Source: Eubacterium sp. (GTDB lineage Bacteria > Bacillota > Clostridia > Lachnospirales > Lachnospiraceae). Taken from it: a stretch of DNA of 64,000 bases. The notes under the pieces are model-generated. The model did not search any database and was not told the origin of the DNA. It saw only the letters and a program-made list of their open reading frames with translations. Location: positions 25,552-89,551 of the forward strand of contig JALERM010000045.1 in assembly GCA_022764165.1 (NCBI GenBank). Reading direction: 5' to 3'. The position numbers were made by a program, and so were the translations under genes. Shown here in pieces: positions 1 to 53,900 of the stretch. Position 1 is the first letter of the stretch; each line of letters begins with the position of its first letter.

Positions 1-1032
1 GTTTTATACGGTCTAATGTTAGACCGTATGAGCCTTAGTATCAAAAACCGCTGGTTTGACGAGGAAGATCGGGTATATATTATCTTTACCGTTGAGGAGG
101 TTATGGAACTGCTTGGATGCGGCAGGCAAAAGGCGGTTAAGAATATTGCGGAGCTTGACACAGAAAAGGGAATCGGCCTGATTGAAAAGAAGCGGCTAGG
201 TTTGGGAAAACCGAATGTAATCTATGTAAAAAATTTTATGATTACGGATTGTCCGGAACCGGAGCGTGAGGAGGAACATGAGGAAGTACATAGGGAAGAA
301 CAGCCGGAAAACTCCGCAAATTCACAGAAGTATGAAAATCAAACTTCAAGAAGTATGAATAACGGATTTCAAGAAGTTCCCGAATCAAATTTCCAGAAGT
401 ATGAAAATCAAACTTCAGGAAGTATGAAAAGCGAATTTCAAGAAGTTCCCGAATCAGACTTCAAGAGTTATGAAAATCAGACTTCAGGAAGTATGAAAAA
501 CGAACCTCAAGAAGTTCCAAAATCAAACTGTAATAATACTGATATTAATAAGACTGATTATAACGATACTGATTACAGTTATACAGAATTTAACAAGACT
601 GATATAAGTGAGACTGAGACTATCTTATCTGATCGAATCCAATCAGGGGATGCTGGTACTGCTTTGGGAAGAAAAGATGTGATTGAAAAAATGAACGCAT
701 ACCGGGAACTTATTCGGGAGCGCATTGAGTATTCCTATCATTCAGCGGAAGATGTAGATGAACTTGTAGAACTGATGGTAGAGGTTATGATGATGCCAGA
801 TGACAGCACGATAAGGATTGCGGGAGTGGACAAACCTGTGGCACTTGTAAAGAATAGGTTTATGAAAATGACATATTCGCATATTGAGTATGTATTGTTC
901 TGCCTGCACAGAAATACAACCAAAGTGGGAAATATCAAAGCGTATCTGTTGACAACGCTTTATAATGCGTCAATGACGATAAATAGCTACTATCAGGCGG
1001 AAGTAAATCATGATTTGTACGGAGGTGGATGA
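1..1032 (+). CDS. RepA_N-family replication initiator, 5' end cut off
   Basis: The protein matches the RepA_N type initiators of Firmicute plasmids and Tn1549-like elements. The reading frame is open to base 1, and the upstream codons read VLYGL before MLDRMSLSIKNRW, which is the family's usual run, so the ATG at 16 is internal and the true start lies before the window. The first 75 residues form the winged-helix DNA-binding domain. A low-complexity linker follows with three 23-residue repeats (YENQTSGSM) and a TD-rich run, then a C-terminal DUF6017-like domain from about residue 220. It would bind the origin to start replication of the circular form. It overlaps no gene; the next gene starts two bases after its stop. 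Confidence is high on family, moderate on the C-terminal domain name. Confidence 0.9.
   Translation, partial: VLYGLMLDRMSLSIKNRWFDEEDRVYIIFTVEEVMELLGCGRQKAVKNIAELDTEKGIGLIEKKRLGLGKPNVIYVKNFMITDCPEPEREEEHEEVHREEQPENSANSQKYENQTSRSMNNGFQEVPESNFQKYENQTSGSMKSEFQEVPESDFKSYENQTSGSMKNEPQEVPKSNCNNTDINKTDYNDTDYSYTEFNKTDISETETILSDRIQSGDAGTALGRKDVIEKMNAYRELIRERIEYSYHSAEDVDELVELMVEVMMMPDDSTIRIAGVDKPVALVKNRFMKMTYSHIEYVLFCLHRNTTKVGNIKAYLLTTLYNASMTINSYYQAEVNHDLYGGG
325..531 (+). repeat. Three 69-bp tandem repeats inside rep gene (iteron candidates)
   Basis: The run TATGAAAATC recurs at 331, 400 and 469, exactly 69 bp apart. Each unit holds the short inverted repeat ACTTC-AA/GG-GAAGT and a second TTCAAGAAGTTCC or similar. 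The units stay in frame. In RepA_N plasmids such as pAD1 the origin is known to lie in repeats inside the rep gene, so these are candidate initiator-binding sites; that role is inference. Confidence 0.85.
538..627 (+). repeat. Six degenerate 15-bp tandem repeats in rep gene
   Basis: Units starting ACTGAT, ACAGAA or ACTGAG follow each other every 15 bp from 538 (ACTGATATTAATAAG and variants), encoding NKTDY-like pentapeptides. The stretch is AT-rich and sits directly after the 69-bp repeats, as expected of a DNA-unwinding element beside iterons, although it could simply be a flexible protein linker. Confidence 0.7.
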
Positions 1033-1033
1033 A

Positions 1034-1375
1034 ATGAGAATCAGTGAGTTTTTGGGAAAAGTGATATTTCCGGTGGGAGCGGCGATATTTTTAGCCGCAT
1101 TGTTTTATCCTGTGTGTGTGGATAATGGAGTATGTGATTATTTAAAATTGTGGATATTAACAGGCATCCCATTTGGTGTGCATCGGATGTTCGTATGGGT
1201 GATTCCAAAAGGTTTTGATATTGGAGGAACCATAGGAGTTTTAGTCATGAATCTATTGGCGGGCGGTGTAATAGGGGGTGTAATCCTGATCTGGCGTCTG
1301 GTGCTGGCGGCATTTTATCTTATAAAAGGCATTGGTTCGGGTATCCTCTGGCTGGCAGGAAAACGTGCTGTGTGA
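1034..1375 (+). CDS. Small membrane protein, DUF6050-like
   Basis: A 113-residue protein whose start is the ATG at 1034, 6 nt after GGAGGTGG. I prefer it to the upstream in-frame codon at 1010, which lies inside the rep gene. It has about three hydrophobic segments (residues 8-24, 38-55, 65-90). The run DNGVCDYLKLW then GIPFGVHRMF is typical of a family I recall as DUF6050, found next to the initiator in Tn1549-like elements. Its function is unknown. The gene is probably co-transcribed with rep and is closed by a hairpin terminator at 1437. Confidence 0.7.
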   Translation: MRISEFLGKVIFPVGAAIFLAALFYPVCVDNGVCDYLKLWILTGIPFGVHRMFVWVIPKGFDIGGTIGVLVMNLLAGGVIGGVILIWRLVLAAFYLIKGIGSGILWLAGKRAV

Positions 1376-1485: not shown

Positions 1486-1510
1486 ACTTTACGACACGAT
1501 GTCGCAAAGT
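1486..1510. promoter_or_regulatory. 25-bp palindrome, copy 1
   Basis: Arms ACTTTACGACA and TGTCGCAAAGT (one mismatch) around a 3-nt centre. The identical 25 bp recurs at 20075-20099, and a perfect version is at 63609-63633. Here it lies 36 bp before the TTG start of the XRE gene, the usual place for an autoregulatory operator. No binding protein can be proven from sequence. Confidence 0.8.
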
Positions 1511-11159: not shown

Positions 11160-14100
11160 ATGAAAGGAAAAGTAAAAAGGATTGTTTCGGGGATGCTTTC
11201 GGTAATGACAATCCTGACTTCTGTTGTACAGCCTGTCACAACGTATGCGGCAGAGCCGGAGCCGGCAGCTTATGAAGCAGAATACCCGGCGCTTGAAAAA
11301 GTGCGGGATATGCTGGCAGAGGATGAAGTGGTTACAGCAGAGGACTATGAAGTGGAGATTGGAAGTGATTTTGATGTGGAAACCGATTTTTCCGGTATGG
11401 AGATTAATGAAGAAAAAGTCAAAGTGACTTTCCATGAAGCAAAGAATGAAGCCGGGGAGGACTTTAATGGAAACCATGCGGATTCCTATAAAGCGGTCTA
11501 CTTTGTAGAACCTGCCAGCGGCAATCCTTCTTATCATATTGTCAGGAAGATCATTGTAAAAGAGCCGGCTACTGAATCACAGTCGGAAAAATCGTCCGAG
11601 GCCGGAGGTGATACGGGGCAGTCCGAAGAATCAGAAAGTGAAGATGGAGAATCGGACACCCATTCGGAACTTGCTGCAGAAACAGAAATGTTATCGGAGA
11701 CTGAACTGGACGCTGCGTTAGAGACATCGGAAACACAGGATACCGTTGATGAAGAAAGCGGGCTTACCCTTAGTGATGTCATGCTGCAGGCCGTAGAACA
11801 GGATGTTGATCTTCTTGAGATGGAGGAAGGGGAGACAGTTACATTTACCGCAAGTTCGGCAATGCTTTATGCGGCAAGGGCAACACAAAGTGTAACAGTG
11901 ACAAAAGGTTCCTGGTATTATTATGCGGATTATGGTCTTGGTTCTTATCTCACCTGCCCGTATACGGTTACATTTGGAAGTATAACAGCTACGGCTTATT
12001 GTGTACAGCCATCAAAACCGGGGCCGGGAAATGGAACCTATACGATTACAAAACTGGCAGACAGCAAGACACTTGCAAAGGTTTGCTATTATGGCACAAA
12101 GGCATCTGGTGATGAGGGATTTTTTGAGGAGAAATATCCTGATTTTTCAGCCGGAAAGCGTTTTATCATTACCCATATTGCGGCTGCATATGCAAATGGG
12201 AGCAGCGATGCGTTTTCCGGAACCAACAGTACGGGACAGGCACTTGCAATGGAACTGTATAACTATTGTGTAAGCCAGCCGGATATTCCGGATGTGGCAA
12301 TGTCATTTTCAAATGCCAGTGTAACTGCCTATGTGGATGGGAATGAGCAGCGTACAAAGGAAGTTACCTTTAACGCTGATACATTACAGACAATTACTAT
12401 GAATTTACCGGATGGCGTGAAATTTCATAACGTAACAACGGGAAAGACAAGTAAGGCAGGTGCGTCCGTAGAAGTAGCGGGAGGCACGAAGTTTTATCTT
12501 TCAGCTCCGCTGACACAGACAGCCGATGTATCCGGTTCCTGGTCTGCCACGATGAAAGGAAGTATCACCAAAGATTACTCCGCTTACAAGATTACGACAG
12601 GAAGTGATACACAGGATTTGGCACTCGTGTTTGGCGAAGGTGTTGATGATGAAAAATATGTGGATTTTTCTGTAAAGTGGCTGGAACTTGCAAAGGTTCA
12701 GGTAGTGAAAGTGGATTCTAATAATAAGGACGCAAAATTATCCGGTGCGGTATTTGGTATTTACAGTGATAAAGACTGTACGCAGTTGATTACAAAAATG
12801 CCGGCAACAGACAGTAATGGTGCGTCCACTGTGGAAATTGTAAAGACGCAGGATACCGTGTACTTAAAAGAAATTACAGCTCCAACAGGATACCGTATCA
12901 ATACGACTTCCTACAATGTAACATTGGTTGCAAACAAGACTGCAACAACAACCGTACCGGATGTGGAGCAGCTTGGGGAATTGACTATTTATAAAGAAGG
13001 GCAGGTTTTGGTTGGTGCGGATGTAAGTGAAACAGGTACAGTATTCCGTTATGAGAATCACCGTCAGCCAGGAGCCATTTACAATGTCTATGCCGGGGAG
13101 GATATTGCTACTGCCTATGGTGCGGTTGTATATAAAAAAGGCGATCTTGTAAAAGAAAACCTGACAATGGATTCCAATGGTGCGGTAATCCTGAAAAATC
13201 TGCATCTTGGCACTTACGTTGTGAAGGAAATGCAGGCTCCGGAGAATTTCTATAATGCGGGGGAAGAAAAAACTGTGACATTATCTTATGCCGGACAGAA
13301 TGTTGAAGTAGTATTTTCCGAGACAACTTTCACGAATGACCGTCAGAAGGCAAAGGTAACTGTTACAAAGAAAGATCAGGATACAGAGAATCCGCTGGAT
13401 GGCGGTGTTTTCGGACTGTATGCGAACAGCGATATTATAGCCTTTGATGGTACAGTGATTGTCAAAAAGGGAACGCTGATTGAGAAGGCTGTGACCGGGG
13501 ATGATGGAACAGCGGCTTTTACGGCTGATTTTCCGATAGGCTTTTCTTACTGTGTGAAAGAGGAGCAGGCCCCGGAAGGGTATCTAAGGAACACGAAGGA
13601 TGTATATTCCTTTGCCTTTTCTTATACCAATGATAGTGAAGCGGTGGTTTCTTTCTCCCATACCTTTACTAATGAACGTGTTAATGCAAAGATTTCTCTG
13701 CATAAAAAGGATGCGGAGACGAATCAGGCAGTGCCGCAAGGGGATGCGACACTGGAAAATGCTGTCTATGGCCTGTATGCCCGTGAGGACATTGTGCATC
13801 CGGACGGGGCAACGGGTGTGATCTATAAGGCAGGAGAAAAAGTGGCAACGCTGACAACGGATGAACATGGTGAGGCATCTGTGGAAAATCTGTATCTTGG
13901 CAGCTACTATGTAAAAGAAATTACTCCGCCGACAGGGTATCTGGCAGATGAAAATGAATATGACCTGGTGTGCAGTTATGAAGGCGATCTGGTGGCTACG
14001 GTAGAACGGGAATGTACTTCCCAGGAGCAGGTAGTGAAACAGCCGTTCCAGATTATTAAAGCTGCGGATAATGGAAAGACAGACGCAGATCTGCTTTCTG

Positions 14101-17100
14101 GTGCCGGATTTACCGCTTACCTGGTATCCTCTCTGAGCGTTAAAGAAGATGGAAACTATGATTTTTCTTCCGTAACGCCAGTGGTAATCGGGGAAAATGG
14201 TGCGACAGAAATCTTTACGGATGAAAAAGGCTATGCCTGCAGTATTGCAATCCCATACGGTACATATATCGTCCGTGAGACAACGACACCGCACAATTAT
14301 ACTCCGGTGGATGATTTTATTGTCCGTATTACGGAGCATCATCCAAACACGCCGCAGGTATGGCGGGTACTTCTGGACGATGAATTTGAAGCAAAGCTGA
14401 AAATTGTGAAACAGGATGATGAAACCAAAAAGCCGGTGTTAGCAAAAAATACAGAGTTTAAGATTTATGACCTTGATAATGAGCAGTATGTAGAGCAGGT
14501 AACAACTTATCCAACTACTGTTGTCCATAAGTCCTACTTTACGGATGAGCAGGGGTATCTGATCCTGCCGCAGAATCTGAAAATCGGGCATTACCGGATT
14601 GAAGAAGTAAATGCTCCGTATGGCTATACGCTGAATGAAAATTATTATGAGGTGGCTGTGGATTCCAACACGGCTTATCAGATGGACACTGTTTCCGGGG
14701 ATGTTGTCATTGAAGTGATCTACGAAAATCATCCGGTCAAGGGAGAACTGAAGGTTGTAAAACGTGGTGAAGTCCTGGATGGATTTGATAAGAATTTTAC
14801 TTACAAAGAGGAAACATTGGAAGGGGCTGTGTTTGAAGTATATGCCGCAGAGGATATTTATACGGCTGATTTCCAGAAGGATTCCGATGGAAACCGGATT
14901 TTGGAGTATGATGCGGATGCGCTGGTGGCAACACTGACTACGGATGAAAATGGAGAGGCGTATCTTTCTGATCTTCCGCTTGGTTCTTACCGGATTGTGG
15001 AAGTGACCGCACCGGAAGGATTTGTATTAAATGAGTCAGCACAGACAGTTACCTTTACCTATGCAGATCAGAATACACCTGTGGTTAAACAGGAAGCAGT
15101 CTTTACAAATGAACGCCAGAAGGTGGAAGTATCTGTGATAAAGCAGGATGCTGTGACAAAGGCGGAAGTTGCCGGAGCCGTTTTTGGTCTGTATGCAAAA
15201 GAGGATATTCTGTCTCATGGAGAAGTCATTGTAGAAGCGGATACATTGCTTGGAAAAGCACTGTCAGAGGAAGATGGAAAAGCTGTTTTCGCATTAGATG
15301 TGCCGTTTGGAAATTACTATATCAAAGAGCTGACCGCTCCGGCTGGTTATGTATCTTCCGATCAGGTGCTGGAACTGACCGCTGCTTATCAGGGACAGGA
15401 TATAAAAGTGGTTGAACTGGAGTCTGTGTTTGAGAATGAGCCTACAAGGATTTCGGTAAAGAAAACAGACCTTACTACCGGAGTGGAGCTTTCCGGAGCA
15501 ACATTAACTGTTCTGGATAAGGATGGAAATGTGGTAGATACATGGAAGTCTGTCAAAGGTGAGGAACATATGATTGAACGTCTGACTGTGGGCGAGACAT
15601 ATACGCTGCGTGAGGAACTGGCTCCGTATGGTTATCTGCAGGCGGAGGAAATCACATTTACGGTGGAAGATACCGCAGAGGTTCAGAAAGTAGAAATGAA
15701 AGATGATGTTCCGACGGGGCTTCTCCTGATTAACAAAAAGGGAGAATTTCTGGAAAATGTGTCTGTGATGGATTCAGTTGGCGGATGGATTGCACACCTG
15801 TTTGAGTATATATCCGGTTCCCTGAAAGATGTTACCTTTGAAGTATATGCTTTGGAGGATATTAAAGCTGCTGACGGGGAAAGTGAGGATTATTACAAAA
15901 AGGATGAGCTGATTGCGGAGATTACAACAGATGATACCGGAGTAGCAAGGCTTTCTGATCTTCCGCTTGGCAAATACTATGTGAAAGAAAAAGAGACAGC
16001 CGACGGGTATGTCCTGGATGGGGAAATTCGTGAGATTGACCTGACTTACCGTGACCAGAATACGGAAGTTGTTACCTATTCTTCTGATTGGCAGAATCTG
16101 CGGCAGAAGGTTGAGGTATCGGTTCTGAAAAAGGAAAAGGATTCTGATCGTGTACTGGAAGGGGCCGTATTTGCCCTGGCTGCGAATGAGGATATTACCA
16201 ACAAAGACGGAAAAGTGATCATGGAGGCCGGAACCGTCATTGAGGAGAGAGCAACGGATAAAGACGGGAAACTTACCTTTACGGCTGATCTTCCAATAGG
16301 CTTTTCCTATTCTGTGAAAGAAACAGTACCAGCACCGGGATTTGCAACAACGGATGAGGTTCAGGAATTTATATTCACTTATGAAGATGCAGAAAAAGAA
16401 TCCGTCTCTTTTGCATTTACTTTTGAGGATGAGCCTACTGTGTTTGAGTTTACCAAAACATCCCTGACAGATGGAAAGGAAGTAGAGGGAGCAAAACTGC
16501 GGATTACAGATGAAGATGGCAATGTAGTGGAAGAATGGACTTCCGGAAAGGAACCGTATATCATTAAGGAGCTGGTTGTGGGGAAGGAATATACCATGAC
16601 AGAAACTCTGCCTGCGGATGGTTATGTGACAGCGGAAAATATTACCTTCACTGTGGAAGATACTGCCGAAGTTCAGAAAATCGAGATGAAGGACGATGTG
16701 ACAAAGGTGGAAATCTCTAAAACAGATATTTCCGGTAAGGAGCTGCCGGGAGCAAAATTAACCATTCTTGACAAAGACGGTAATGTGGTGGAAAGCTGGA
16801 CATCCACTGAGGAGCCGCATTATATAGAAATGCTGCCAATCGGAGAATATACACTTCGTGAGGAATCTGCACCGGAAGGGTATCTGGTAGCCGAGGATGT
16901 GAAATTTGAGGTAAAAGATACCGGAGAAATTCAGAAGGTGGTGATGAAGGATGAAGTGAAACCGGAAGAAACACCGCAGACTTCTTCGGACACACCGAAA
17001 ACAGGTGATGATACTCATGCGGTATTGTGGATTATTCTTTGCGGGCTGGCATTTGCAGGACTGGCAGGCTCTGTGGTACTGCTTCGCAGGAAGAAAAAAT

Positions 17101-17102
17101 AA
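11160..17102 (+). CDS. Giant wall-anchored adhesin with Cna-B repeats
   Basis: A 1980-residue surface protein. It has a signal peptide (1 to about 31, ending TTYAA), an acidic Ser/Glu-rich stretch (140-190), a domain at about 243-400 resembling a thioester adhesin domain (Cys in TATAYCVQPSKPGP, about 281), then about 13 Cna-B/SpaA-like repeats from 510 to 1930. The repeats show the usual lysine (VVKVD, VTKKD) and glutamate (KEITAPTGY) positions for isopeptide bonds. The end is TPKTGDD (about 1944), a TM helix and RRKKK, a class B- or C. difficile-like sorting signal. It would extend from the wall to bind host surfaces or cells. A class B sortase is encoded at 28733. The ribosome site is weak (GCGAGG) and the leader holds hairpins and a three-codon minigene at 11087. 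Confidence 0.9.
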   Translation: MKGKVKRIVSGMLSVMTILTSVVQPVTTYAAEPEPAAYEAEYPALEKVRDMLAEDEVVTAEDYEVEIGSDFDVETDFSGMEINEEKVKVTFHEAKNEAGEDFNGNHADSYKAVYFVEPASGNPSYHIVRKIIVKEPATESQSEKSSEAGGDTGQSEESESEDGESDTHSELAAETEMLSETELDAALETSETQDTVDEESGLTLSDVMLQAVEQDVDLLEMEEGETVTFTASSAMLYAARATQSVTVTKGSWYYYADYGLGSYLTCPYTVTFGSITATAYCVQPSKPGPGNGTYTITKLADSKTLAKVCYYGTKASGDEGFFEEKYPDFSAGKRFIITHIAAAYANGSSDAFSGTNSTGQALAMELYNYCVSQPDIPDVAMSFSNASVTAYVDGNEQRTKEVTFNADTLQTITMNLPDGVKFHNVTTGKTSKAGASVEVAGGTKFYLSAPLTQTADVSGSWSATMKGSITKDYSAYKITTGSDTQDLALVFGEGVDDEKYVDFSVKWLELAKVQVVKVDSNNKDAKLSGAVFGIYSDKDCTQLITKMPATDSNGASTVEIVKTQDTVYLKEITAPTGYRINTTSYNVTLVANKTATTTVPDVEQLGELTIYKEGQVLVGADVSETGTVFRYENHRQPGAIYNVYAGEDIATAYGAVVYKKGDLVKENLTMDSNGAVILKNLHLGTYVVKEMQAPENFYNAGEEKTVTLSYAGQNVEVVFSETTFTNDRQKAKVTVTKKDQDTENPLDGGVFGLYANSDIIAFDGTVIVKKGTLIEKAVTGDDGTAAFTADFPIGFSYCVKEEQAPEGYLRNTKDVYSFAFSYTNDSEAVVSFSHTFTNERVNAKISLHKKDAETNQAVPQGDATLENAVYGLYAREDIVHPDGATGVIYKAGEKVATLTTDEHGEASVENLYLGSYYVKEITPPTGYLADENEYDLVCSYEGDLVATVERECTSQEQVVKQPFQIIKAADNGKTDADLLSGAGFTAYLVSSLSVKEDGNYDFSSVTPVVIGENGATEIFTDEKGYACSIAIPYGTYIVRETTTPHNYTPVDDFIVRITEHHPNTPQVWRVLLDDEFEAKLKIVKQDDETKKPVLAKNTEFKIYDLDNEQYVEQVTTYPTTVVHKSYFTDEQGYLILPQNLKIGHYRIEEVNAPYGYTLNENYYEVAVDSNTAYQMDTVSGDVVIEVIYENHPVKGELKVVKRGEVLDGFDKNFTYKEETLEGAVFEVYAAEDIYTADFQKDSDGNRILEYDADALVATLTTDENGEAYLSDLPLGSYRIVEVTAPEGFVLNESAQTVTFTYADQNTPVVKQEAVFTNERQKVEVSVIKQDAVTKAEVAGAVFGLYAKEDILSHGEVIVEADTLLGKALSEEDGKAVFALDVPFGNYYIKELTAPAGYVSSDQVLELTAAYQGQDIKVVELESVFENEPTRISVKKTDLTTGVELSGATLTVLDKDGNVVDTWKSVKGEEHMIERLTVGETYTLREELAPYGYLQAEEITFTVEDTAEVQKVEMKDDVPTGLLLINKKGEFLENVSVMDSVGGWIAHLFEYISGSLKDVTFEVYALEDIKAADGESEDYYKKDELIAEITTDDTGVARLSDLPLGKYYVKEKETADGYVLDGEIREIDLTYRDQNTEVVTYSSDWQNLRQKVEVSVLKKEKDSDRVLEGAVFALAANEDITNKDGKVIMEAGTVIEERATDKDGKLTFTADLPIGFSYSVKETVPAPGFATTDEVQEFIFTYEDAEKESVSFAFTFEDEPTVFEFTKTSLTDGKEVEGAKLRITDEDGNVVEEWTSGKEPYIIKELVVGKEYTMTETLPADGYVTAENITFTVEDTAEVQKIEMKDDVTKVEISKTDISGKELPGAKLTILDKDGNVVESWTSTEEPHYIEMLPIGEYTLREESAPEGYLVAEDVKFEVKDTGEIQKVVMKDEVKPEETPQTSSDTPKTGDDTHAVLWIILCGLAFAGLAGSVVLLRRKKK

Positions 17103-17585: not shown

Positions 17586-18104
17586 ATGCAGGATGAAGTA
17601 AATGAGAAAACGGTATCCCTCTGTATCAATGGTGGCAAAATTTCCGCACGGATATTGAAAAATGCAATGGCAAAAGCACTCGCAAAGATGGAGCAGGAGA
17701 AGCGGAAAGGGCAGCAGAAAGCAGCAGAGAAAGGGCAGGAGAAAGATACTGCGGTCTATCATGGGAAACAGAGTATGGAGAAACTGATGAAGCAGAACTG
17801 CCAGTTATCGAATATTGAAGTGACAAACGGGAATATAAAGTCCTTTGAGAAATGTGCCAGAAAATACTGCATTGATTTTAGTCTGAAAAAGGATACTTCT
17901 GTATCTCCGCCCCGATATTTTGTGTTCTTTAAAGCAAAGGATGTGGATGTAATGACAGCGGCTTTTAAAGAATATTCCGGAAAGCAGCTTACTAAGAGCA
18001 AAAAGCCTTCTATCCGTAAAAAACTGTCACTGGCGAAAGAGCGTATGGCAAAGCACAGAGAGAGGGAAAAAACCAAACAGAAAGAACGGGGGCCGGAGCA
18101 TTGA
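17586..18104 (+). CDS. PcfB-like protein (DUF3801)
   Basis: A 172-residue protein. ATG 17586 follows GAAGGTG; the track start at 17475 lies inside the Cys-rich gene. The plan (KTVSLCINGGKISARILKNA near the start, then a folded region around 70-145 with QNCQLSNIEVTNGNIKSFEK and a basic tail) matches DUF3801/PcfB. In pCF10 PcfB binds the coupling protein and relaxosome. It overlaps the VirD4 gene start (TTGA), consistent with a stoichiometric partnership. Confidence 0.85.
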   Translation: MQDEVNEKTVSLCINGGKISARILKNAMAKALAKMEQEKRKGQQKAAEKGQEKDTAVYHGKQSMEKLMKQNCQLSNIEVTNGNIKSFEKCARKYCIDFSLKKDTSVSPPRYFVFFKAKDVDVMTAAFKEYSGKQLTKSKKPSIRKKLSLAKERMAKHREREKTKQKERGPEH

Positions 18105-20026
18105 GTGTAAAAAACAAACAGAAAAATGTGAGCATCCCAATAAGAAAGCTGGCTGCAGATGTAAAAGGAAGGCTGCCCCCTATGGATGGAAAACGGCTAA
18201 TCATGCTGAATATTCCCTATGTGATTGTATTTTATCTTGCGGATAAGGTAGCATGGCTGTACCGTCATTGCATGGGGGATTCTCTGGTAGCAAAAGTGGG
18301 AGTATTGTTTTTAAATTTTCAGCTTGCGTTTGAAAATTTTATGCCTAGCTTTCATATTTATGATCTGATTGCAGGCATGGTTGGTGCTGTGGCAGTAAAA
18401 ACAGCGGTATACCTTAAAGGTAAAAATGCAAAGAAATACCGGCAGGGTGAGGAGTATGGTTCTGCCCGTTGGGGAAATGAGAAGGATATAGCTCCTTTTA
18501 TTGATCCGGTGTTTGAGAATAACATCCTTTTAACGCAGACGGAACGGCTGACGATGAACAGCCGCCCGAAACTTCCAAAATATGCCCGGAATAAGAATGT
18601 AATCGTAATTGGCGGCTCCGGTTCCGGTAAGACAAGATTTTATGTGAAACCGAATTTAATGCAGATGACACCGAATGTCAGCTATGTGGTTACTGATCCG
18701 AAGGGTACGATCCTGGTGGAATGTGGGAAAATGCTAAAACAGGGTTCCCCGAAGATAAAAGACGGGAAGATTGTGCGGGACAAAAATGGGAAGATCGTTT
18801 ATGAACCGTATAAGATAAAAGTCTTAAATACCATCAATTTCCAAAAGTCCATGCACTATAATCCGTTCCGATATATCCGGTCTGAAAAGGATATTTTGAA
18901 GCTGGTGAATACTATTATCGCCAATACCAAAGGGGAAGGGGAGAAATCTTCGGAGGATTTTTGGGTGAAAGCAGAGAGACTTCTGTATTGTGCTTTGATC
19001 GGCTACATCTATTATGAGGCCCCGGAGGAGGAACAAAATTTTTCCACGCTGCTTGAATTTATCAATGCGTCCGAAGCAAGGGAGGATGATGAAGAATTTA
19101 AAAATGCGGTGGATGAGCTGTTTGAGGAACTGGAAAAGGAAAAGCCGGAGCATTTTGCGGTACGCCAGTATAAAAAATATAAACTGGCGGCAGGTAAAAC
19201 AGCGAAGTCAATACTTATTAGCTGTGGTGCAAGGCTGGCTCCTTTTGATATAGCAGAGTTACGGGAACTGACTTCTTATGATGAGATGGAGTTGGATATG
19301 TTGGGAGATCAGCGAACGGCCATGTTTGTCATTATCTCCGATACGGATGATACCTTCAATTTTGTTGTGGCAATCATGTATACGCAGCTATTCAATTTGC
19401 TCTGTGACCGTGCGGATGATGTGCATGGCGGCAGGCTCCCTTACCATGTAAGGCTTTTGCTCGATGAATTTGCGAATATCGGGCAGATTCCGAAGTTTGA
19501 CAAGCTGATCGCAACCATCCGAAGCCGTGAAATATCGGCTTCTATTATTTTGCAGTCGCAGAGCCAGTTAAAAACGATTTATAAAGATGCTGCTGAGACA
19601 ATTCTGGGAAATTGCGACACCATGTTGTTTCTTGGCGGCAAGGAAGGCAGCACGTTAAAGGAGATTTCGGAAACGCTTGGGAAGGAAACGATTGACCTTT
19701 ATAACGAATCGGACACTCGTGGACAGAGCCGCTCCTATGGATTGAATTACCAGAAAACCGGAAAAGAATTAATGAGCCGGGATGAACTTGCGGTTATGGA
19801 TGGAAATAAGTGTATCCTGCAGCTTCGTGGGGTGCGCCCATTTTTCAGCGATAAGTTCGATATTACCCGTCACAAGCGGTATAAGGAGCTGTCAGACTAT
19901 GACAAGAAAAACGCCTTTGACGTGGAGGCGTATATGAAACATCAGCTTCAGATCAGAGTAAAAGAAGAATTTGACCTGTTTGAAGTGGATGGAGATGAAA
20001 ATGAGGATATGGACAGTGAGAAGTAA
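18101..20026 (+). CDS. VirD4-like type IV coupling protein
   Basis: A 641-residue coupling ATPase that links the relaxosome to the secretion channel at the membrane. Two N-terminal TM segments (about 35-55 and 85-107) come first, then Walker A GGSGSGKTRFYVKPN near 170, Walker B LLLDEFANIG near 449 and the RSREISASIILQSQSQL segment typical of TraG/VirD4. The start is TTG 18101 with GGAG 6 nt before, overlapping the PcfB stop. The acidic tail (DENEDMDSEK) may contact partners. Length and motifs are as usual for the PcfC/VirD4 branch. Confidence 0.92.
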   Translation: MSVKNKQKNVSIPIRKLAADVKGRLPPMDGKRLIMLNIPYVIVFYLADKVAWLYRHCMGDSLVAKVGVLFLNFQLAFENFMPSFHIYDLIAGMVGAVAVKTAVYLKGKNAKKYRQGEEYGSARWGNEKDIAPFIDPVFENNILLTQTERLTMNSRPKLPKYARNKNVIVIGGSGSGKTRFYVKPNLMQMTPNVSYVVTDPKGTILVECGKMLKQGSPKIKDGKIVRDKNGKIVYEPYKIKVLNTINFQKSMHYNPFRYIRSEKDILKLVNTIIANTKGEGEKSSEDFWVKAERLLYCALIGYIYYEAPEEEQNFSTLLEFINASEAREDDEEFKNAVDELFEELEKEKPEHFAVRQYKKYKLAAGKTAKSILISCGARLAPFDIAELRELTSYDEMELDMLGDQRTAMFVIISDTDDTFNFVVAIMYTQLFNLLCDRADDVHGGRLPYHVRLLLDEFANIGQIPKFDKLIATIRSREISASIILQSQSQLKTIYKDAAETILGNCDTMLFLGGKEGSTLKEISETLGKETIDLYNESDTRGQSRSYGLNYQKTGKELMSRDELAVMDGNKCILQLRGVRPFFSDKFDITRHKRYKELSDYDKKNAFDVEAYMKHQLQIRVKEEFDLFEVDGDENEDMDSEK

Positions 20027-20074: not shown

Positions 20075-20099
20075 ACTTTACGACACGATGTCGCAAAGT
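20075..20099. promoter_or_regulatory. 25-bp palindrome, copy 2
   Basis: Identical over 25 bp to copy 1 at 1486 (arms ACTTTACGACA / TGTCGCAAAGT). It lies 18 bp before the ATG at 20117 and upstream of Maff2 and the channel genes, so it could control expression of the transfer operon. Confidence 0.8.
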
Positions 20100-24724: not shown

Positions 24725-25105
24725 ATGGCATTCGTATCGGTGCCAAAAGACTTAACCAAAGTAAAGAACAAGGTTGTATTGAACCTTACAAAACGGCAGA
24801 TTATCTGTCTGACGATTGCAGCAGCCATAGGGCTGCCTTTTTATTTTCTTACGAGAGGGACTATTGGGACAAGCAATGCGGCAACGGGTATGGTACTGCT
24901 TATGCTTCCGGCCTTTATGTTTGCTATGTATGAGAAAGACGGACTGCCGTTGGAGAAAATACTTTGGAACATCATTAACGTAAAAATTTTAAATCCGGCT
25001 ATCCGCAGGTATGAGGTGGAAAACCTGTATGAAATGCGAGAACAGAAATCTGTTTCAAAGGAGAAGAAAGGGGGAAAACGACGTGGAAAGAAAAAGAAAC
25101 GATGA
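24725..25105 (+). CDS. PrgI family protein (VirB3-like)
   Basis: A 126-residue protein starting ATG 24725 after AAGGAGGGA. Residues 1-25 match the PrgI start (VSVPKDLTKVKNKVVLNLTK), then two TM helices (26-46 and 52-70) and the EKDGLPLEKILWN segment, followed by a very basic tail. PrgI proteins are the VirB3 counterparts of Gram-positive type IV secretion and pair with the VirB4 ATPase, whose gene overlaps it here by 23 bp. Confidence 0.9.
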   Translation: MAFVSVPKDLTKVKNKVVLNLTKRQIICLTIAAAIGLPFYFLTRGTIGTSNAATGMVLLMLPAFMFAMYEKDGLPLEKILWNIINVKILNPAIRRYEVENLYEMREQKSVSKEKKGGKRRGKKKKR

Positions 25106-27932
25106 ATTTGCGTGGAATGGAAACCACAAGGCTTATCGTGAACCGCCAGATGATTATTATCTGGATGAGCCGGATGATGAAGAATTTGAGGACTATGATG
25201 CGGATGATCTGCTTAACAGGGTAAAAGGGCAGCCGCCCCGGTATTCGCAGGAACCATATATATCTGGTTATGAAGCATTTGAGCGTAGCCGGGGTAGAAG
25301 AACATCCCGTAAATTAACCAGGCGAGAGAAAAGAGCGATTAAAAAAGCAGAGAAGATGGCTGAAAAACTGCGGAAGGAACAGGAGAAAGCAGATAAGAAA
25401 GCGGCAAAGAAAAATGCGAAAGTCGCTGCTCGTGAAGAAAAAAGAGCTGCCCGTGAGGAGCAGAAGGCATCTAAGCATAAACCGAAGCAGAAAAAATCCT
25501 CTGATAAACATAGTTCTGTGAAAAATGTTCCGATAAAGAGTGGAACGGTAAAAGCATCTCCGGTAAAGGAGACTGGAAACAGAAAGCCTATGTCTAAGGC
25601 AGAGGAGAAGAAAGCAAAAGAAAAGAGACTTTCCGCACAGAAGTCGATTCCATACCGGGAAATGGCAAGGGACGGTATCTGCCGTGTTCAGGATAAATAT
25701 TATTCAAAGACTATCCGGTTTTACGATATAAATTATCAGTTGGCACAGAATGAGGATAAGAACGCTATTTTTGAAAATTGGTGTGATTTCCTGAATTATT
25801 TTGACAGTACCATCCATTTTCAGCTTTCCTTTATCAATCATCACAGCAACATGAAGGAGTATGAATCAGTTATCCAGATCAGGCCGCAGAATGATGCGTT
25901 TGATGATGTGCGCATGGAGTATGCACAGATGCTGAAAAATCAGCTTGCGAAGGGCAACAATGGTTTGGTGCGGACAAAGTATATCACGTTTGGGATTGAA
26001 GCCGATAATATCCGGGAAGCAAAACCGAAGCTGGAGCGTATTGAAGCGGATATTTTAAACAATTTTAAAGTGCTTGGCGTATCCGCCTATCCGTTGAATG
26101 GAGAAGAACGGCTGCAGGTTATGTACGAGACATTTAATCCGGAGGAAAAAGTACCATTCCAGTTTTCCTATGATAAAGTGCTGCGTACCGGGATGGGAAC
26201 AAAGGATTTCATTGCGCCTACCAGTTTTGTATTCAAGAACGGCAAAGATTTTATGATGGGGAATACCATTGGTGCGGTGTCGTATCTGCAGATACTGGCC
26301 CCGGAGCTGACGGACAAGATGCTGGCAGAATTTCTGGATATGGACAGAAATTTAATTGTGAACCTTCATATCCAGTCCTTAGACCAGATGAAGGCAATCA
26401 AGCTCGTAAAGAGCAAAGTAACGGACATCAACCGTATGAAGATTGAGGAACAAAAGAAAGCGGTACGTTCCGGATATGATATGGACATCATTCCATCAGA
26501 CTTAAACACCTATGGCGGCGAAGCAAAGCGGCTGTTAGAGGATTTGCAGTCGAGGAATGAAAGGATGTTTCTTGTAACCGTGCTGTTTTTAAATACGGCA
26601 AAGACAAAACAGGAACTGGACAATGCGGTGTTTCAGACTTCCGGTATCGCACAGAAGTATAATTGTTCGCTGCGCCGCCTGGATTATATGCAGGAGCCGG
26701 GATTGATGAGCAGTATTCCGTTGGGGATTAACTTAATTCCGATTAAACGGGCACTGACTACCACATCTACGGCTATTTTTGTGCCTTTTACCACGCAGGA
26801 GCTTTTTATGGCGGGAGAATCCCTTTATTACGGTTTGAACGCTCTTAGCAACAACATGATTATGGTAGACCGGAAGAAACTGAAAAATCCTAACGGTTTG
26901 ATTTTAGGTACACCGGGTTCCGGTAAATCTTTTTCAGCAAAGCGTGAGATTACCAATGCTTTTTTTGCTACACAGGATGACATTATCATTGGTGATCCGG
27001 AAGGAGAATACTATCCGCTTGTCAATGCGCTTGGCGGGCAGGTAATTCATATCTCCCCTACAAGCCATGATTACATTAATCCGATGGACATCAACCTGGA
27101 CTATTCGGACGATGATAACCCGCTTGGCTTTAAGAGTGATTTTATTTTATCTCTGTGTGAACTTATCATGGGTTCCAGAAATGGGATTGAAGCGGAGGAA
27201 AAATCGGTCATTGACCGTTGCCTGCCGATTGTGTATCAGAAATATTTTGAGAATCCTGTGCCGGAGAATATGCCTGTGCTTGGGGATTTGTACCAATGCC
27301 TTCGGTCACAGAGGGAAGTGCAGGCACAGCGTATCGCAACCGCACTGGAAATCTATGTAAATGGTTCCTTAAAAGTATTCAATCATCGTACCAATGTGGA
27401 ACTGAATAACCGGATTATCTGTTTTGATATTAAAGATTTGGGGAAACAGCTTAAAAAACTTGGGATGCTGATTGTACAGGATCAGGTTTGGAACCGTGTA
27501 ACCATTAACCGTGCCGCTCATAAATCCACCCGGTATTACATAGATGAGTTCCATTTGCTCTTAAAAGAGGAACAGACAGCGGCGTACTCGGTGGAAATCT
27601 GGAAACGATTTAGAAAGTGGGGTGGTATTCCGACAGGAATTACGCAGAATATCAAGGATTTGCTGGCAAGCCGTGAGATTGAGAATATTTTTGAAAACTC
27701 CGATTTTATTTACATGCTGAATCAGGCTGCCGGGGACAGGCAAATACTGGCAAAACAGCTTAATATTTCCCCGCATCAGTTGTCCTATGTGACGAACAGC
27801 GGCGAAGGAGAAGGACTGATTTTCTACGGCAGTACCATTATTCCATTCAAGGATAAATTTGATAAATCGTTGAGGTTGTATAAGCTGATGACAACGAAAC
27901 CTTCGGAAATGGAGAATCGGCAGGGAAAATGA
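25083..27932 (+). CDS. VirB4-like conjugation ATPase
   Basis: A 949-residue ATPase. GTG 25083 (AAAGGGGGAAA upstream) is preferred; the track start at 25011 is deep in prgI. The first 200 residues are highly charged, acidic then Lys/Arg-rich, likely a cytoplasmic docking tail. A VirB4 N-domain (about 215-560) is followed by Walker A GTPGSGKSFSAKRE near 608 and GDPEGEYYPLV. Walker B lies in YYIDEFHLLL near 820, then a GIPTGITQNIKDLLAS segment. It powers pilus or channel assembly and substrate passage together with VirD4. It overlaps the methylase gene (ATGA). Confidence 0.92.
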   Translation: MERKRNDEFAWNGNHKAYREPPDDYYLDEPDDEEFEDYDADDLLNRVKGQPPRYSQEPYISGYEAFERSRGRRTSRKLTRREKRAIKKAEKMAEKLRKEQEKADKKAAKKNAKVAAREEKRAAREEQKASKHKPKQKKSSDKHSSVKNVPIKSGTVKASPVKETGNRKPMSKAEEKKAKEKRLSAQKSIPYREMARDGICRVQDKYYSKTIRFYDINYQLAQNEDKNAIFENWCDFLNYFDSTIHFQLSFINHHSNMKEYESVIQIRPQNDAFDDVRMEYAQMLKNQLAKGNNGLVRTKYITFGIEADNIREAKPKLERIEADILNNFKVLGVSAYPLNGEERLQVMYETFNPEEKVPFQFSYDKVLRTGMGTKDFIAPTSFVFKNGKDFMMGNTIGAVSYLQILAPELTDKMLAEFLDMDRNLIVNLHIQSLDQMKAIKLVKSKVTDINRMKIEEQKKAVRSGYDMDIIPSDLNTYGGEAKRLLEDLQSRNERMFLVTVLFLNTAKTKQELDNAVFQTSGIAQKYNCSLRRLDYMQEPGLMSSIPLGINLIPIKRALTTTSTAIFVPFTTQELFMAGESLYYGLNALSNNMIMVDRKKLKNPNGLILGTPGSGKSFSAKREITNAFFATQDDIIIGDPEGEYYPLVNALGGQVIHISPTSHDYINPMDINLDYSDDDNPLGFKSDFILSLCELIMGSRNGIEAEEKSVIDRCLPIVYQKYFENPVPENMPVLGDLYQCLRSQREVQAQRIATALEIYVNGSLKVFNHRTNVELNNRIICFDIKDLGKQLKKLGMLIVQDQVWNRVTINRAAHKSTRYYIDEFHLLLKEEQTAAYSVEIWKRFRKWGGIPTGITQNIKDLLASREIENIFENSDFIYMLNQAAGDRQILAKQLNISPHQLSYVTNSGEGEGLIFYGSTIIPFKDKFDKSLRLYKLMTTKPSEMENRQGK

Positions 27933-33465: not shown

Positions 33466-35568
33466 TTGTATTTAGTATTAGGTGAGAAGCCGAGTGTGGC
33501 GCAGGCACTGGCAAAGGTGTTAGGTGCTAAGAAACGAAAGGATGGCTATTTTGAGGGGAATGGATGGCTTGTAAGCTGGTGTTTGGGGCATTTGGCGGAA
33601 TATGTATCGCCGGAGGCATATGATGAACGGTATCAGAAATGGGAGTTTTCTGACCTTCCGATTTTTCCGGAGGCATGGCAGCTTGCCATAGCGAAGGATA
33701 AAAAAGAACAGTTTCATGTGTTGAAAAAACTGCTCAACCGTGATGATGTGGAGTATGTAGTCAATGGATGTGACGCAGGGCGTGAAGGCGAGCTGATCTT
33801 TAAGAGAGTCTATGACTTGTCTGGGAGCCATCTTCCGGTCAAACGGCTGTGGATCAGTTCAATGGAGGATGCTGCCATTCGGGAAGGGTTTGCCCATTTG
33901 AAAGACGGTGCCGAGTATAAAAATCTTTGTGAAGCGTCGATTTGCAGAGCAAAGGCGGATTGGTTAATCGGCATGAACGCTACCAGGGCATTTACTACAA
34001 AATATTATAAGCGTCTGGTAGTAGGACGTGTGCAGACACCCACGCTTGCGATGCTGGTGGAAAGAGACAGCCAGATTAATCATTTCCAAAAGGAAGCATA
34101 TTATAACGTGCATTTGGATTGCAACGGTCTGGAAGTAATAAAAGAAAAGATTTTTGATAAAGCAGAAGCAGACAGATTAAAGGATGCCTGTAACGGGGCA
34201 TCCGCTGTGGTGGAAAAAACTGTGTCAACAGAAAAAACAGTCAATCCACCAAAACTATATGATCTGACAACATTGCAAAGGGAAAGTAACCGTTATTATG
34301 GTTATACGGCGAAGGAGACATTAGATTTTACACAGAGTTTATATGAAAAAAAGCTGGTTACATATCCGAGAACGGACAGCCAGTATCTTACAGAGGATAT
34401 GGAACAGACGGCGGAACAGGTCATCCGTATGGTGTGCGGGAAATTCGGTTATGGTTCGTCCGTATATCCGTCAAAACCAAATGTAAAACGTGTCATGGAT
34501 AATAAAAGAGTATCCGATCATCATGCCATTATCCCTACGGCAGAGTTGGAAAGCTGCGAGATAGGGGAACTTTCCAAAGGTGAACGGGATATATTACTTT
34601 TGATTTCCACACGTTTGCTCTGCGCAACGGGACCAAAACACCTTTATGTAGAATCTGTAGTTTCCATATCATGTGCCGATGAGATATTTACAGCAAAAGG
34701 AAAAGTAATCAAAGAAATCGGCTGGAAAGCTATTGAAGCAGCGTTTTGTCAGGCGCAGGGAGGAAGAAATCGTAAGGCTGTGGATAAAGAATTAGTGGCG
34801 ATTCCTTTTGTGGCGGAAGGCAATGTTATTGACAGCGTAACGGCAGGAGTGACAGAGCATTTCACGACACCACCCAAACCATACAGTGAAGATACACTTT
34901 TGTCTGCAATGGAGACTGCCGGGAATAAAGAATTTGACGAAGATACGGAAAAGAAAGGACTTGGCACTCCGGCAACGAGGGCAAGCATTATAGAAAAGCT
35001 GGTTTCTTCCGGTTATGCGCTGCGTAAGGGTAAGCAGATAGTTCCTACCAGCGATGGAGCCGATCTGATCGCTGTGCTTCCAGAATATTTGAAATCCGCA
35101 GCCATGACAGCGGAATGGGAAAACAAATTGCTTTTGATGGAAAAGGGACAGCTTGAAGGCAGTGGGTTCATGCAGGGAATCACGGATTTGATTGACCGGA
35201 TGCTTTTGGAGTGCAGTACCATATCTGGAGAGGAACAGAATCGTTTTCATCCGAGGGAAGAAATCGGGAAGTGTCCGTTGTGTGGCAGTCCGGTTTATGA
35301 GGGAAAGAAAAATTTTTATTGTTCCAACCGGGATTGCTCCTTTTCTCTGTGGAAAGAGAACCGCTATCTTTCTGGTATGAGGAAACAGGTAGATAAGCAC
35401 ATGGCAAAGGAATTGCTGCAGCAGGGACGTACCCATGTGGATGATCTGTATTCGCAGAAAAAAGGAAAGACGTTTGCGGCGGATTTGCTTCTTGAGATGC
35501 AGGATGGCCGTGCTAACTTTAAGCTGGAATTTCCCAAAAAGAAAGGAAGTAAAAAGAAATACAAATAA
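33466..35568 (+). CDS. topB: DNA topoisomerase III
   Basis: A 700-residue type IA topoisomerase. The start is TTG 33466 with AAAGGAG 7 nt before; the Toprim domain begins at once (YLVLGEKPSVAQALAKVLG, then GCDAGREGELIF near 101). The active-site Tyr is in VTYPRTDSQYL (about 299). A C-terminal zinc-ribbon-like part follows (CPLCGSPVYEGKKNFYCSNR, about 602). It relaxes or decatenates DNA during element replication or transfer. Tn1549-like elements usually carry it at this position, before the large methylase-helicase. Confidence 0.93.
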   Translation: MYLVLGEKPSVAQALAKVLGAKKRKDGYFEGNGWLVSWCLGHLAEYVSPEAYDERYQKWEFSDLPIFPEAWQLAIAKDKKEQFHVLKKLLNRDDVEYVVNGCDAGREGELIFKRVYDLSGSHLPVKRLWISSMEDAAIREGFAHLKDGAEYKNLCEASICRAKADWLIGMNATRAFTTKYYKRLVVGRVQTPTLAMLVERDSQINHFQKEAYYNVHLDCNGLEVIKEKIFDKAEADRLKDACNGASAVVEKTVSTEKTVNPPKLYDLTTLQRESNRYYGYTAKETLDFTQSLYEKKLVTYPRTDSQYLTEDMEQTAEQVIRMVCGKFGYGSSVYPSKPNVKRVMDNKRVSDHHAIIPTAELESCEIGELSKGERDILLLISTRLLCATGPKHLYVESVVSISCADEIFTAKGKVIKEIGWKAIEAAFCQAQGGRNRKAVDKELVAIPFVAEGNVIDSVTAGVTEHFTTPPKPYSEDTLLSAMETAGNKEFDEDTEKKGLGTPATRASIIEKLVSSGYALRKGKQIVPTSDGADLIAVLPEYLKSAAMTAEWENKLLLMEKGQLEGSGFMQGITDLIDRMLLECSTISGEEQNRFHPREEIGKCPLCGSPVYEGKKNFYCSNRDCSFSLWKENRYLSGMRKQVDKHMAKELLQQGRTHVDDLYSQKKGKTFAADLLLEMQDGRANFKLEFPKKKGSKKKYK

Positions 35569-50209: not shown

Positions 50210-50250
50210 GGAAGATGTTTGCCCTTGCGTGGCGGCATCTTCCCTTTTTT
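50210..50250. terminator. Bidirectional terminator
   Basis: GGAAGATG and CATCTTCC form an 8-bp stem with AAAAAA before and TTTTTT after, so it ends the plus-strand YodL transcript and the minus-strand Abi transcript (the T run overlaps the Abi stop). Confidence 0.8.
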
Positions 50251-51193: not shown

Positions 51194-51205
51194 TTTTTTC
51201 TCCTT

Positions 51206-51277
51206 AAACAAAAGAGGGAGAGACCCGCAGGTTCTCCCCCGGTCACGGGCTTCGCAAGTTTCCGTAACACGATCACT
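51206..51277 (-). ncRNA. Candidate abiF-type small RNA upstream of Abi gene
   Basis: From a consensus promoter at 51284-51312 an RNA of about 72 nt would run to a strong hairpin (GGGAGA-ACC / GGT-C-TCTCCC, loop TGCG) followed by TCTTTTGTTT. A second stem is GTTACGG / CCGTGAC. It ends 12 nt before the Abi ATG. I recall a conserved RNA motif named abiF just upstream of Abi_2 genes; the position fits, the structure was not checked against the model. Confidence 0.65.
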
Positions 51278-51283
51278 GAGTCT

Positions 51284-51312
51284 AATATAGCAGGATTGAC
51301 GGAAAAAGTCAA
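51284..51312 (-). promoter_or_regulatory. Promoter of small RNA / Abi gene
   Basis: On the minus strand TTGACT (51312-51307), 17 nt, TATATT (51289-51284). Likely start of transcription is near 51277. Confidence 0.8.
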
Positions 51313-51380
51313 TACGCTGGTTCAACTCTGTGTTAGTATATGCCGTATTACCGGAAAAGATACCAGAGAGTGCGTCAGAG

Positions 51381-51424
51381 AATAAAAATAAGCCTGATCC
51401 TGTGTGAGAGTAGCGATCAGACTT
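51381..51424 (-). terminator. Terminator of minus-strand XRE gene
   Basis: AAGTCTGATC pairs with GATCAGGCTT (one mismatch) and is followed by ATTTTTATT on the minus strand. It separates the XRE gene from the small RNA/Abi unit. Confidence 0.75.
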
Positions 51425-51623
51425 AATCTTTATAATGTGTCGCAATATCCTCAATATTACAATCCAGAATATTGCATAGAGTATTTATAGTGTTCATGCT
51501 TACGCCTTCATTATTTTGCAAGCGATGAAGCAGAGATTTGCTGAAATGATATTCTTTATGCAACGTATATTTAGTTATGCCTTTGGATTTCATGGTATCC
51601 CACAGTTTGTCATACTTTATCAT
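51423..51623 (-). CDS. Small XRE-type regulator next to Abi gene
   Basis: A 66-residue HTH protein (YDKLWDTMKSKGITKYTLHK, FSKSLLHRLQNNEGVSMNTI, LDCNIEDIATHYKD) that fits the HTH_26/XRE group. Start ATG 51623 lies after AAAGGGGGATG; the ORF-track start at 51890 is in the region of the divergent gene. It probably controls its own promoter and may control the Abi/RNA unit, although a terminator lies between them. Confidence 0.78.
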   Translation of the reverse strand: MIKYDKLWDTMKSKGITKYTLHKEYHFSKSLLHRLQNNEGVSMNTINTLCNILDCNIEDIATHYKD

Positions 51624-52250: not shown

Positions 52251-53900
52251 CTAAGATATATCCTGGTTCTTTTCCTGTTCGGGATGTTTAGCATGATTTT
52301 TTCCTAAAATCATATCCACGTTTGTACAGACAGTTTTTAGTTCGTTTTGATAACCTCGCAGATTTTGGTAGGCTTCATATTGAGTATTTTTCAGAGCAGT
52401 TAGTTTTTCTTTTTCTGCCTTTAGTGTTTTCATTGATGGCAGTTTGCCGCTATCAGATTTTTCTTTTAAAATACGGTGGGCAGTTTCATAAAGTGTAATT
52501 TCAGACAGGTGTTCCTGACGGAATTGTTTCTTGTTTTTGGATTTCAGAAATTGCCCATATACAGATTTATTTGCCAGATATTGTCCGGTATAATGAATCT
52601 GCTCATTGACTTCTTTTAACTGTTGCTCTGTGGAACGCAGGGCTTTACGAATTTCGGTGGTTTGCTCCTGTGCTTCGGAAAACGCTGTCAGCAAATCTTC
52701 CTGCGTATCATATCCATGTTCCTGCACATAGGCAACCGTTTTTGCCATTTGTTGTAAATTGGACAATTTTACACGTCTGGCATATGCGTCACTTTGCTGT
52801 GCCTTGACACAATGCTGCAGATATACAACGAGGCGGAGATCAGACTTAATGAAAATAAAAGCAGGAATGTCTGTCTTTATGGTTTCACCATGTGGGAGAC
52901 TATTTTTCGTAAGAGTATTATCTACCAATGGTGATTCTGATAAGTTCTTTTGTCTTTGCTGTTCTGCATTTCGTTCAAATAATGTAAGCAGATAATCCTT
53001 TTCATAATGTGTACCGAGGTTCCTGCCTGTGATCGGTTTGCTGCGTTCTGGGTGGAGATAACTAAACCGGCCACGGCTGATTTTGAGAGTAACATGGTAA
53101 TTTTCCGCAAGTAGTTGCTGAAACTCGTCCAGATTGCCGGCAGAAGCAGCAGCATTTTCAATCGCTGTCCGGAGAAATTCTTTCTGAGTCTGATATTTGG
53201 TCTGGCGGGGAGTAATGCCTTCGGATTGCATCTGTTTGTTGCGTTCATTTAGTTTTTTCTGCCCTCTGCGGTTTGCATGATATTCACGATCTGAAATTTT
53301 CTTTTCAGCAGGAGTAAGCAAATCTACCTGGTGGAAATGTTCCCGATGGCACATATCCATGACAGATTGTTTTAAGTGAATTAGATAATTTTTAGTCAAA
53401 TGATGTTTGCATCCGGCACGGTATTCGCTTCTTTGCGTCATAAAAGGTTGTTTTTCTATATCGTATTTCCGAAGGCTGTTAATTACAATATGCACATGAA
53501 TGTTGCCGCTTTCATTGTGACCGTCTGTATGGGTACAGACAAGGGCCTGATGTCCGGGAAAATTCTTTTTTGCATATTCCAGTCCCAGTTGTTGTGCTTG
53601 TTCTCCGGTCAAGCCATTTTCCGTCACATCTTTCGGATCAAAGCTAAGGATGTAGTGGTGGGACTTGATTTCGTTGTATTTCTGGTTTTTATGATATTTT
53701 TCGTTTAACTCCCTACACTCTAAATCAAAAGTGAATGGATCACAGTTTATCCCATCAAGATAATATTCCTCACGGGGAATCAGCTCACCATTCTCATCAA
53801 GAATGGGTTTATTGGTATACTCATCATACTGGAACATGAGATACCGCTGTGCTTCTCCATAATCAGCATTTTTACTCGTTATATGTTTCAGTATCGCCAT
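52251..53900 (-). CDS. Relaxase (MobA/VirD2-like)
   Basis: A 549-residue relaxase with the nuclease domain in the first 240 residues: the metal-binding histidines lie in THTDGHNESGNIHVHIVINS (H126, H135, H137 region, the HxH motif), and a tyrosine near the N-terminus (Y14, Y20, Y26 are candidates) would attach to DNA. The rest is a helical, Gln/Lys-rich part (350-540). It nicks oriT and leads the strand through the channel. The gene overlaps mobC by 29 bp and both read away from the oriT-like region at 54265. Start MAILKHITSKN is standard. Confidence 0.92.
   Translation of the reverse strand: MAILKHITSKNADYGEAQRYLMFQYDEYTNKPILDENGELIPREEYYLDGINCDPFTFDLECRELNEKYHKNQKYNEIKSHHYILSFDPKDVTENGLTGEQAQQLGLEYAKKNFPGHQALVCTHTDGHNESGNIHVHIVINSLRKYDIEKQPFMTQRSEYRAGCKHHLTKNYLIHLKQSVMDMCHREHFHQVDLLTPAEKKISDREYHANRRGQKKLNERNKQMQSEGITPRQTKYQTQKEFLRTAIENAAASAGNLDEFQQLLAENYHVTLKISRGRFSYLHPERSKPITGRNLGTHYEKDYLLTLFERNAEQQRQKNLSESPLVDNTLTKNSLPHGETIKTDIPAFIFIKSDLRLVVYLQHCVKAQQSDAYARRVKLSNLQQMAKTVAYVQEHGYDTQEDLLTAFSEAQEQTTEIRKALRSTEQQLKEVNEQIHYTGQYLANKSVYGQFLKSKNKKQFRQEHLSEITLYETAHRILKEKSDSGKLPSMKTLKAEKEKLTALKNTQYEAYQNLRGYQNELKTVCTNVDMILGKNHAKHPEQEKNQDIS

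Follow-up and report, generated by a model that had tools for sequence, protein, structure and literature searches.

The closest described counterpart of the locus analysed here is the replication gene of the Staphylococcus aureus conjugative plasmid pSK41. The N-domain of pSK41 Rep binds four Rep boxes that lie within rep, the linker encoded there is dispensable, and C-domains in the RepA_N family are genus-specific (PMC5703833). RepA_N origins have been defined by semi-palindromic direct repeats that converge on a poly-A tract (PMC7145576). Integrative and conjugative elements (ICEs) of the Tn1549 and TnGBS types combine conjugation genes with RepA_N, ParA and a site beside rumA/rlmD, and TnGBS elements use RepA_N to maintain the circle before integration (PMC4701971). 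The SXT/R391 family offers a further precedent for ICE replication (PMC4489591).

Our window, the whole 64,000-nucleotide stretch analysed (contig C45:25552-89551), opens inside a rep gene whose likely ATG lies upstream of it, at L008:9881, equivalent to window position -119. The encoded protein joins a RepA_N N-domain (PF06970, C45:25483-25707, 109 bits against a cut-off of 30) to a DUF6017 C-domain (PF19481, C45:26236-26577, 114 bits), and between the two the gene carries nine boxes that fit the definition by semi-palindromic repeats and a poly-A tract; the AT-rich region that adjoins iterons is present as a run of 15-bp repeats. We put at about 87% the probability that this array serves an integrated conjugative element as its replication origin, located inside the gene of the element's own RepA_N initiator. 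The original prediction had proposed an origin in iteron-like repeats inside rep, and it is strongly supported by the RepA_N identity of the gene, the pSK41-like geometry and the co-variation of the boxes with the N-domain.

Rep residues 8-126 match four solved RepA_N chains, 4pt7, 5kbj, 4pql and 4pta, with E values from ∼1e-25 to 6e-23. Among these, the pTZ2162 RepA N-domain solved with an iteron (PDB 5kbj) aligns over the same residues with an E of 8e-25, a comparison made by sequence similarity only. An AlphaFold2 model of DUF6017 gave no fold match in the PDB (best E 0.27), and we rejected a relationship of this domain to DnaD or to the pSK41 C-domain on that ground; the pSK41/DnaD-like fold is not a trait common to all RepA_N proteins. 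A gene for a DUF6050 membrane-like protein (window 1010-1375) overlaps the end of rep and is kept after rep in the relative G104.

Judged by gene content and order, rep sits on an integrated conjugative element beside rlmD. Upstream of rep the contig carries parB, parA, a DUF6075 gene and rlmD/rumA, and the coupling protein, VirB4, relaxase and segregation ATPase that serve as criteria for Tn1549-like ICEs are all present. The element shares with the Tn1549 and TnGBS types the conjugation genes (Table 1), RepA_N, ParA and the site beside rumA/rlmD. The window also holds an NlpC/P60 hydrolase, a large methylase-helicase and an ArdC-type protein. In G104, on a 3.8-Mb contig, the same order of pcrA, rlmD, parA, parB, rep, VirD4, VirB4 and TopB is found with the relaxase at the end, and in both genomes the element lies directly after rlmD. 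Tn1549-type ICEs have a serine integrase with direct repeats in rumA/rlmD. Searches for integrases (PF00589, PF00239) returned no match on C45, the window's contig, and no convincing attL/attR direct repeats were seen here or in G104, where the longest, chance-like match was 14 bp. A small ORF after rlmD, considered as an exchanged integrase tail, had no Pfam match and was discarded. The right end of the element was not found on C45, and the element is incomplete in the assembly.

Several other features of the element were observed. A reverse transcriptase with an HNH domain, probably from a group II intron, lies amid the conjugation genes (window 21119-23005), an Abi_2-type abortive infection protein adjoins the relaxase (50249-51454, minus strand), and a surface protein of 1980 residues, in which a thioester domain is combined with 13 SpaA-type domains, is carried as cargo (11160-17102). 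The near-perfect 23-bp palindrome CTTTGCGACATCGTGTCGCAAAG occurs at 1487-1509, 20076-20098 and 63610-63632; it has no further site elsewhere in the genome, so that all three are on this contig, and shuffled sequences contained none. Similar palindromes are found ∼400-700 bp after rep in several relatives. This palindrome is a candidate parS for the adjacent ParAB or, alternatively, a candidate operator of the HTH gene at 1528.

Table 1. Positions of the main features, in window coordinates
Feature	Position	Strand	Basis
rep, 3' part	1..1032	+	RepA_N N-domain, iteron linker, DUF6017 C-domain
Start of the predicted DNA recognition helix, CG-R80-Q81-K82-AVKN	121..150	+	top-ranked co-variation with box half-site -7 and -4
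Putative iterons of the origin, nine Rep boxes of 21 bp spaced 23 bp apart	327..531	+	
Box 3, stop-avoiding variant, left arm GAAGTTCC not GAAGTATG	373..393	+	
Box 6, stop-avoiding variant	442..462	+	
Box 9, stop-avoiding variant	511..531	+	
AT-rich 15-bp repeats, probable DNA unwinding element	531..617 (end approximate)	+	27% GC; pSK41 and relatives alike
Rep C-terminal domain (DUF6017), presumed host-replisome contact	646..1029	+	AlphaFold2 model pLDDT 82
23-bp palindrome CTTTACGACACGATGTCGCAAAG, candidate parS (or HTH operator)	1487..1509	.	whole-genome site count, shuffles
VirD4-type coupling protein	18101..20026	+	PF02534, E 1.5e-54
VirB4-type ATPase	25011..27932	+	PF19044, E 2.6e-10
Topoisomerase (TopB type)	33466..35568	+	PF01131, E 1.7e-108
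Relaxase (MobA/VirD2-like)	52251..53900	-	PF03432, E 7.6e-17

The nine boxes, anchored on their dyads, start at 327, 350, 373, 396, 419, 442, 465, 488 and 511 and have as consensus the interrupted palindrome GAAGTATG-AAAAT-CAAACTTC. The ACTTC/GAAGT inverted repeats that had been noticed from the sequence were recovered as the arms of these 21-bp palindromes, which are centred on an A-tract; the arms pair at 7 of 8 positions in boxes 1 and 4 and at 4-5 of 8 in the other boxes. The array had been described as three 69-bp units, and a 69-bp period does exist. TRF reported it at 317-527 with 3.1 copies, 87% match and a score of 310, and autocorrelation over the same interval was 0.87 at lag 69, compared to 0.68 at lag 23, 0.67 at lag 46 and a background of ∼0.35. 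A repeat search nevertheless placed copies every 23 bp, not 69, and the lag-23 run score was 69 against a best of 12 among 30 codon shuffles (lags 9-35). From the autocorrelation and the run score, the fundamental unit is therefore 23 bp, repeated as nine boxes, and 69 bp was rejected as the iteron. The predicted AT-rich 15-bp repeats do follow the array, with TRF calling them from 531 and their GC content at 27% versus 41-43% across the rest of rep; the rep genes of relatives also have an AT-rich module directly after their boxes.

When the same script was applied to pSK41 rep, it returned four 23-bp units at nucleotides 409-501 followed by 15-bp repeats at 500-550, a geometry identical to that of the window and in keeping with the expectation that RepA_N origins lie inside rep. 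The two loci have in common a RepA_N N-domain, interrupted palindromes centred on an A-tract, a 23-bp spacing just after the N-domain and AT-rich 15-bp repeats directly after the boxes. The window differs from pSK41 in having nine boxes instead of four, a DUF6017 C-domain and an integrated element as its carrier. The 23-bp geometry also occurs in Staphylococcus epidermidis and S. aureus plasmids, in the Anaerococcus plasmid pAPRE01 and in a Monoglobus replicon. The prgW gene of pCF10 and the lactobacillus RepA_N plasmids likewise have A-tract palindromes inside rep, but these are spaced by 54 bp, in frame, rather than by 23 bp. Among the 138 Clostridia RepA_N genes scored, which are mutually related and do not count as independent events, the best period over the codon-shuffle null was 23 bp in 109, 24 bp in 6 and 22 bp in 2, and most of the remainder show a 15-bp module.

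As 23 is not divisible by 3, successive copies of one DNA word fall in all three reading frames, and the nine boxes of the window run repeatedly through frames 2, 1 and 0. The consensus box contains TGA (GTATGAAAATC), which becomes a stop codon in one phase of three, i.e., in every third box. Across intact genes with TGA-type boxes, the triplet was present in 0 of 137 boxes in the stop phase versus 247 of 276 in the other phases. In the avoiding boxes the right arm is retained, with 6.7 of 8 bases as in the consensus, and the left arm is lost, with 4.9 of 8 compared to 7.0-7.25. The excess of lag-69 over lag-23 identity was 0.099 in genes with a stop triplet in the consensus and 0.048 in those without (P = 0.003). 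pSK41, whose boxes contain no in-frame stop triplet, for this reason has no 69-bp super-period. The super-period thus stems in large part from the avoidance of TGA in every third box, and is to that extent a scar that coding has left on an array of 23-bp units. The excess of 0.048 that persists where the consensus lacks a stop triplet may come from duplication of blocks of three units.

For the same arithmetic reason, the gain or loss of one box shifts the rep frame, so that the number of boxes can change only in threes without breaking the gene, unless an indel elsewhere compensates. The comparison of repeat numbers among relatives that had been proposed shows intact genes clustering at 3-4, 6-7 and 9-10 boxes, counted by box anchors, with some of the arrays given as 10 boxes including one degenerate last box. 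The last box is in one frame in most intact genes. This quantisation is expected because the frame is kept, and it is not independent evidence of function. Two natural cases fit a frame-breaking change of one unit. L101 carries ten boxes, including an identical adjacent pair, versus nine in its relatives L050 and L051, and the C-domain of L101 occupies the frame that a gain of 23 bp would give. C191, a rep of the window's own genome, has six boxes against the seven of L040, the intact gene closest to it, and the C-domain of C191 occupies the frame that a loss of 23 bp would give. Other broken reps were explained by substitutions or contig ends, not by unit changes.

C191 (G000:C191, L009 865-1939) is the second RepA_N gene of the genome; it has a different 23-bp box, GGAGGTCGGAAAAACCGAAGTCT, and is split into two frames, apparently by the loss of one 23-bp unit. 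The third (G000:C43, L010 3912-2914, minus strand) is intact, with four boxes and the recognition residues R-N-K, unlike those of the window Rep. The RepA_N genes L147, L150 and L167 have 24-bp units, which are in frame and show a weaker dyad; these genes escape the frame lock.

Co-variation was assessed over 64 N-domains that remained after clustering at 95%. With C-domain distance removed, box distance followed N-domain distance (partial Mantel r = 0.38, P = 0.0005); over the same 64 proteins it showed no correlation with C-domain distance given the N-domain (r = -0.05, P = 0.73). In the ranking of residue-base pairs (residues numbered with the K of KIQFEY as 1), residue 80 with base -7 came highest, and third place went to residue 81 with base -4. 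The two residues lie at the start of the helix that is predicted, from the general layout of winged helix-turn-helix domains, to recognise DNA. R or K at position 80 goes with G at -7 in 48 of 54 half-sites and T80 with T in 34 of 34; Q81 goes with T at -4 in 64 of 74 and E81 with C in 16 of 18, counts which overstate independence since the sequences are phylogenetically related. With 32 nearest disjoint pairs, all 8 that differ in the -7 base class also differ at residue 80, and 17 of the 24 that share the class share the residue (Fisher P = 0.0006).

The window Rep has R80 (codon at 124-126), Q81 (127-129) and K82, and the bases in its boxes are the expected ones: G at -7, T at -4 and G at -3. 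For these pairs the rule links Rep residues to box bases. Held-out plasmids obeyed the rule in 5 of 7 and 9 of 11 cases, a result not above chance given the base rates (P = 0.15 and 0.23). The two exceptions are staphylococcal Reps, those of S. aureus SA1428 and S. saprophyticus UTI-050, which also differ at residue 82. The Lactobacillus johnsonii box, GAAGTTCG-AAAAT-CGAACTTC, has the same half-site as the box of an S. aureus plasmid Rep with identical K80 and E81. We infer from the co-variation and from homology that the Rep N-domain binds the boxes.

A low-complexity linker peptide repeated at the protein level, with the DNA repeat as its by-product, would also produce a periodic array, and the peptide does show a 23-residue repeat. 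Because the frame moves two bases with each unit, however, the 23-bp unit is not a peptide repeat of the same period and yields unrelated peptides in the three frames, and the box bases follow residues of the N-domain. The codon positions also evolve alike in the array: over 108 related gene pairs, differences at positions 1, 2 and 3 were.260/.215/.205 in the array, compared to.112/.049/.388 in the N-domain and.130/.091/.364 in the C-domain, so that, relative to the two domains, the array changes more slowly at third positions and faster at second positions. This is the profile predicted where a tolerant linker is constrained at the DNA level. Some codon pattern persists over the initial 30 bases of the AT-rich module (.086/.089/.226), and the start of that module is probably under both DNA and codon constraints. 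The array-encoded peptide itself seems only slightly constrained, and so DNA function would set the array sequence. With a 23-bp period running through three frames and a flat codon-position profile, the repeats are not kept only as protein; we rejected that explanation on the autocorrelation and codon-position data, which already contradict it, and give it next to no weight.

Binding sites for Rep are by themselves no proof of an origin, and iteron-type Reps often autoregulate, so the array might serve as an operator of rep and nothing else. The array does not sit at the promoter. It is found hundreds of bases inside the reading frame of rep, and directly after it comes an AT-rich module, just as at the proven origin of pSK41, which makes a purely autoregulatory role very improbable. 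A less remote but still unlikely alternative is that Rep and its boxes are vestigial or have been put to a new use, with box binding serving another role in transfer and replication no longer being started from them. Chromosomal RepA_N genes have been suspected of serving other functions in conjugative transposons, for which replication is not a requirement (PMC7145576), and several of the reps, C191 among them, are broken. Against this, most relatives have preserved the boxes, the AT-rich module and the recognition helix, which continue to co-evolve, parAB is adjacent, and in TnGBS elements RepA_N maintains the circle before integration (PMC4701971).

If the array is the origin of the element, the winged-helix N-domain of Rep would bind the nine 23-bp boxes, as co-variation and homology to the pSK41 and pTZ2162 RepA proteins suggest, with stop-phase boxes keeping one good arm and losing the other. 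Occupation of the array may strain or open the adjacent AT-rich 15-bp repeats, whereupon the DUF6017 C-domain would recruit the host replisome. Theta replication would take place once the element has been excised as a circle, and the adjacent parAB would provide segregation. Replication as a circle is plausible given that this ICE has parAB, a type IV secretion system and a relaxase, and that TnGBS and SXT provide precedents.

Taken jointly, these observations tilt us somewhat towards a broader view, in which RepA_N origins across Clostridia are shaped by the competing demands of the binding site and the reading frame. Box number would then change in threes, as one box more or fewer kills rep; the stop triplet would make every third site one-armed, leaving arrays of two full sites and one half site, which may tune initiation; and residues 80 and 81 would form a specificity code that sorts incompatibility groups, so that several elements could coexist in a cell; the genome of the window has three distinct Reps. 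The array is a clear natural example of DNA-binding sites evolving inside a coding frame. The rule linking Rep residues to box bases is predictive, and would be useful for compatibility forecasts and for vectors for gut Lachnospiraceae. Whether the RepA_N genes of conjugative transposons still start replication is a reported doubt (PMC7145576), and intact origin sites that co-evolve with the Rep helix in many gut Clostridia make it directly testable.
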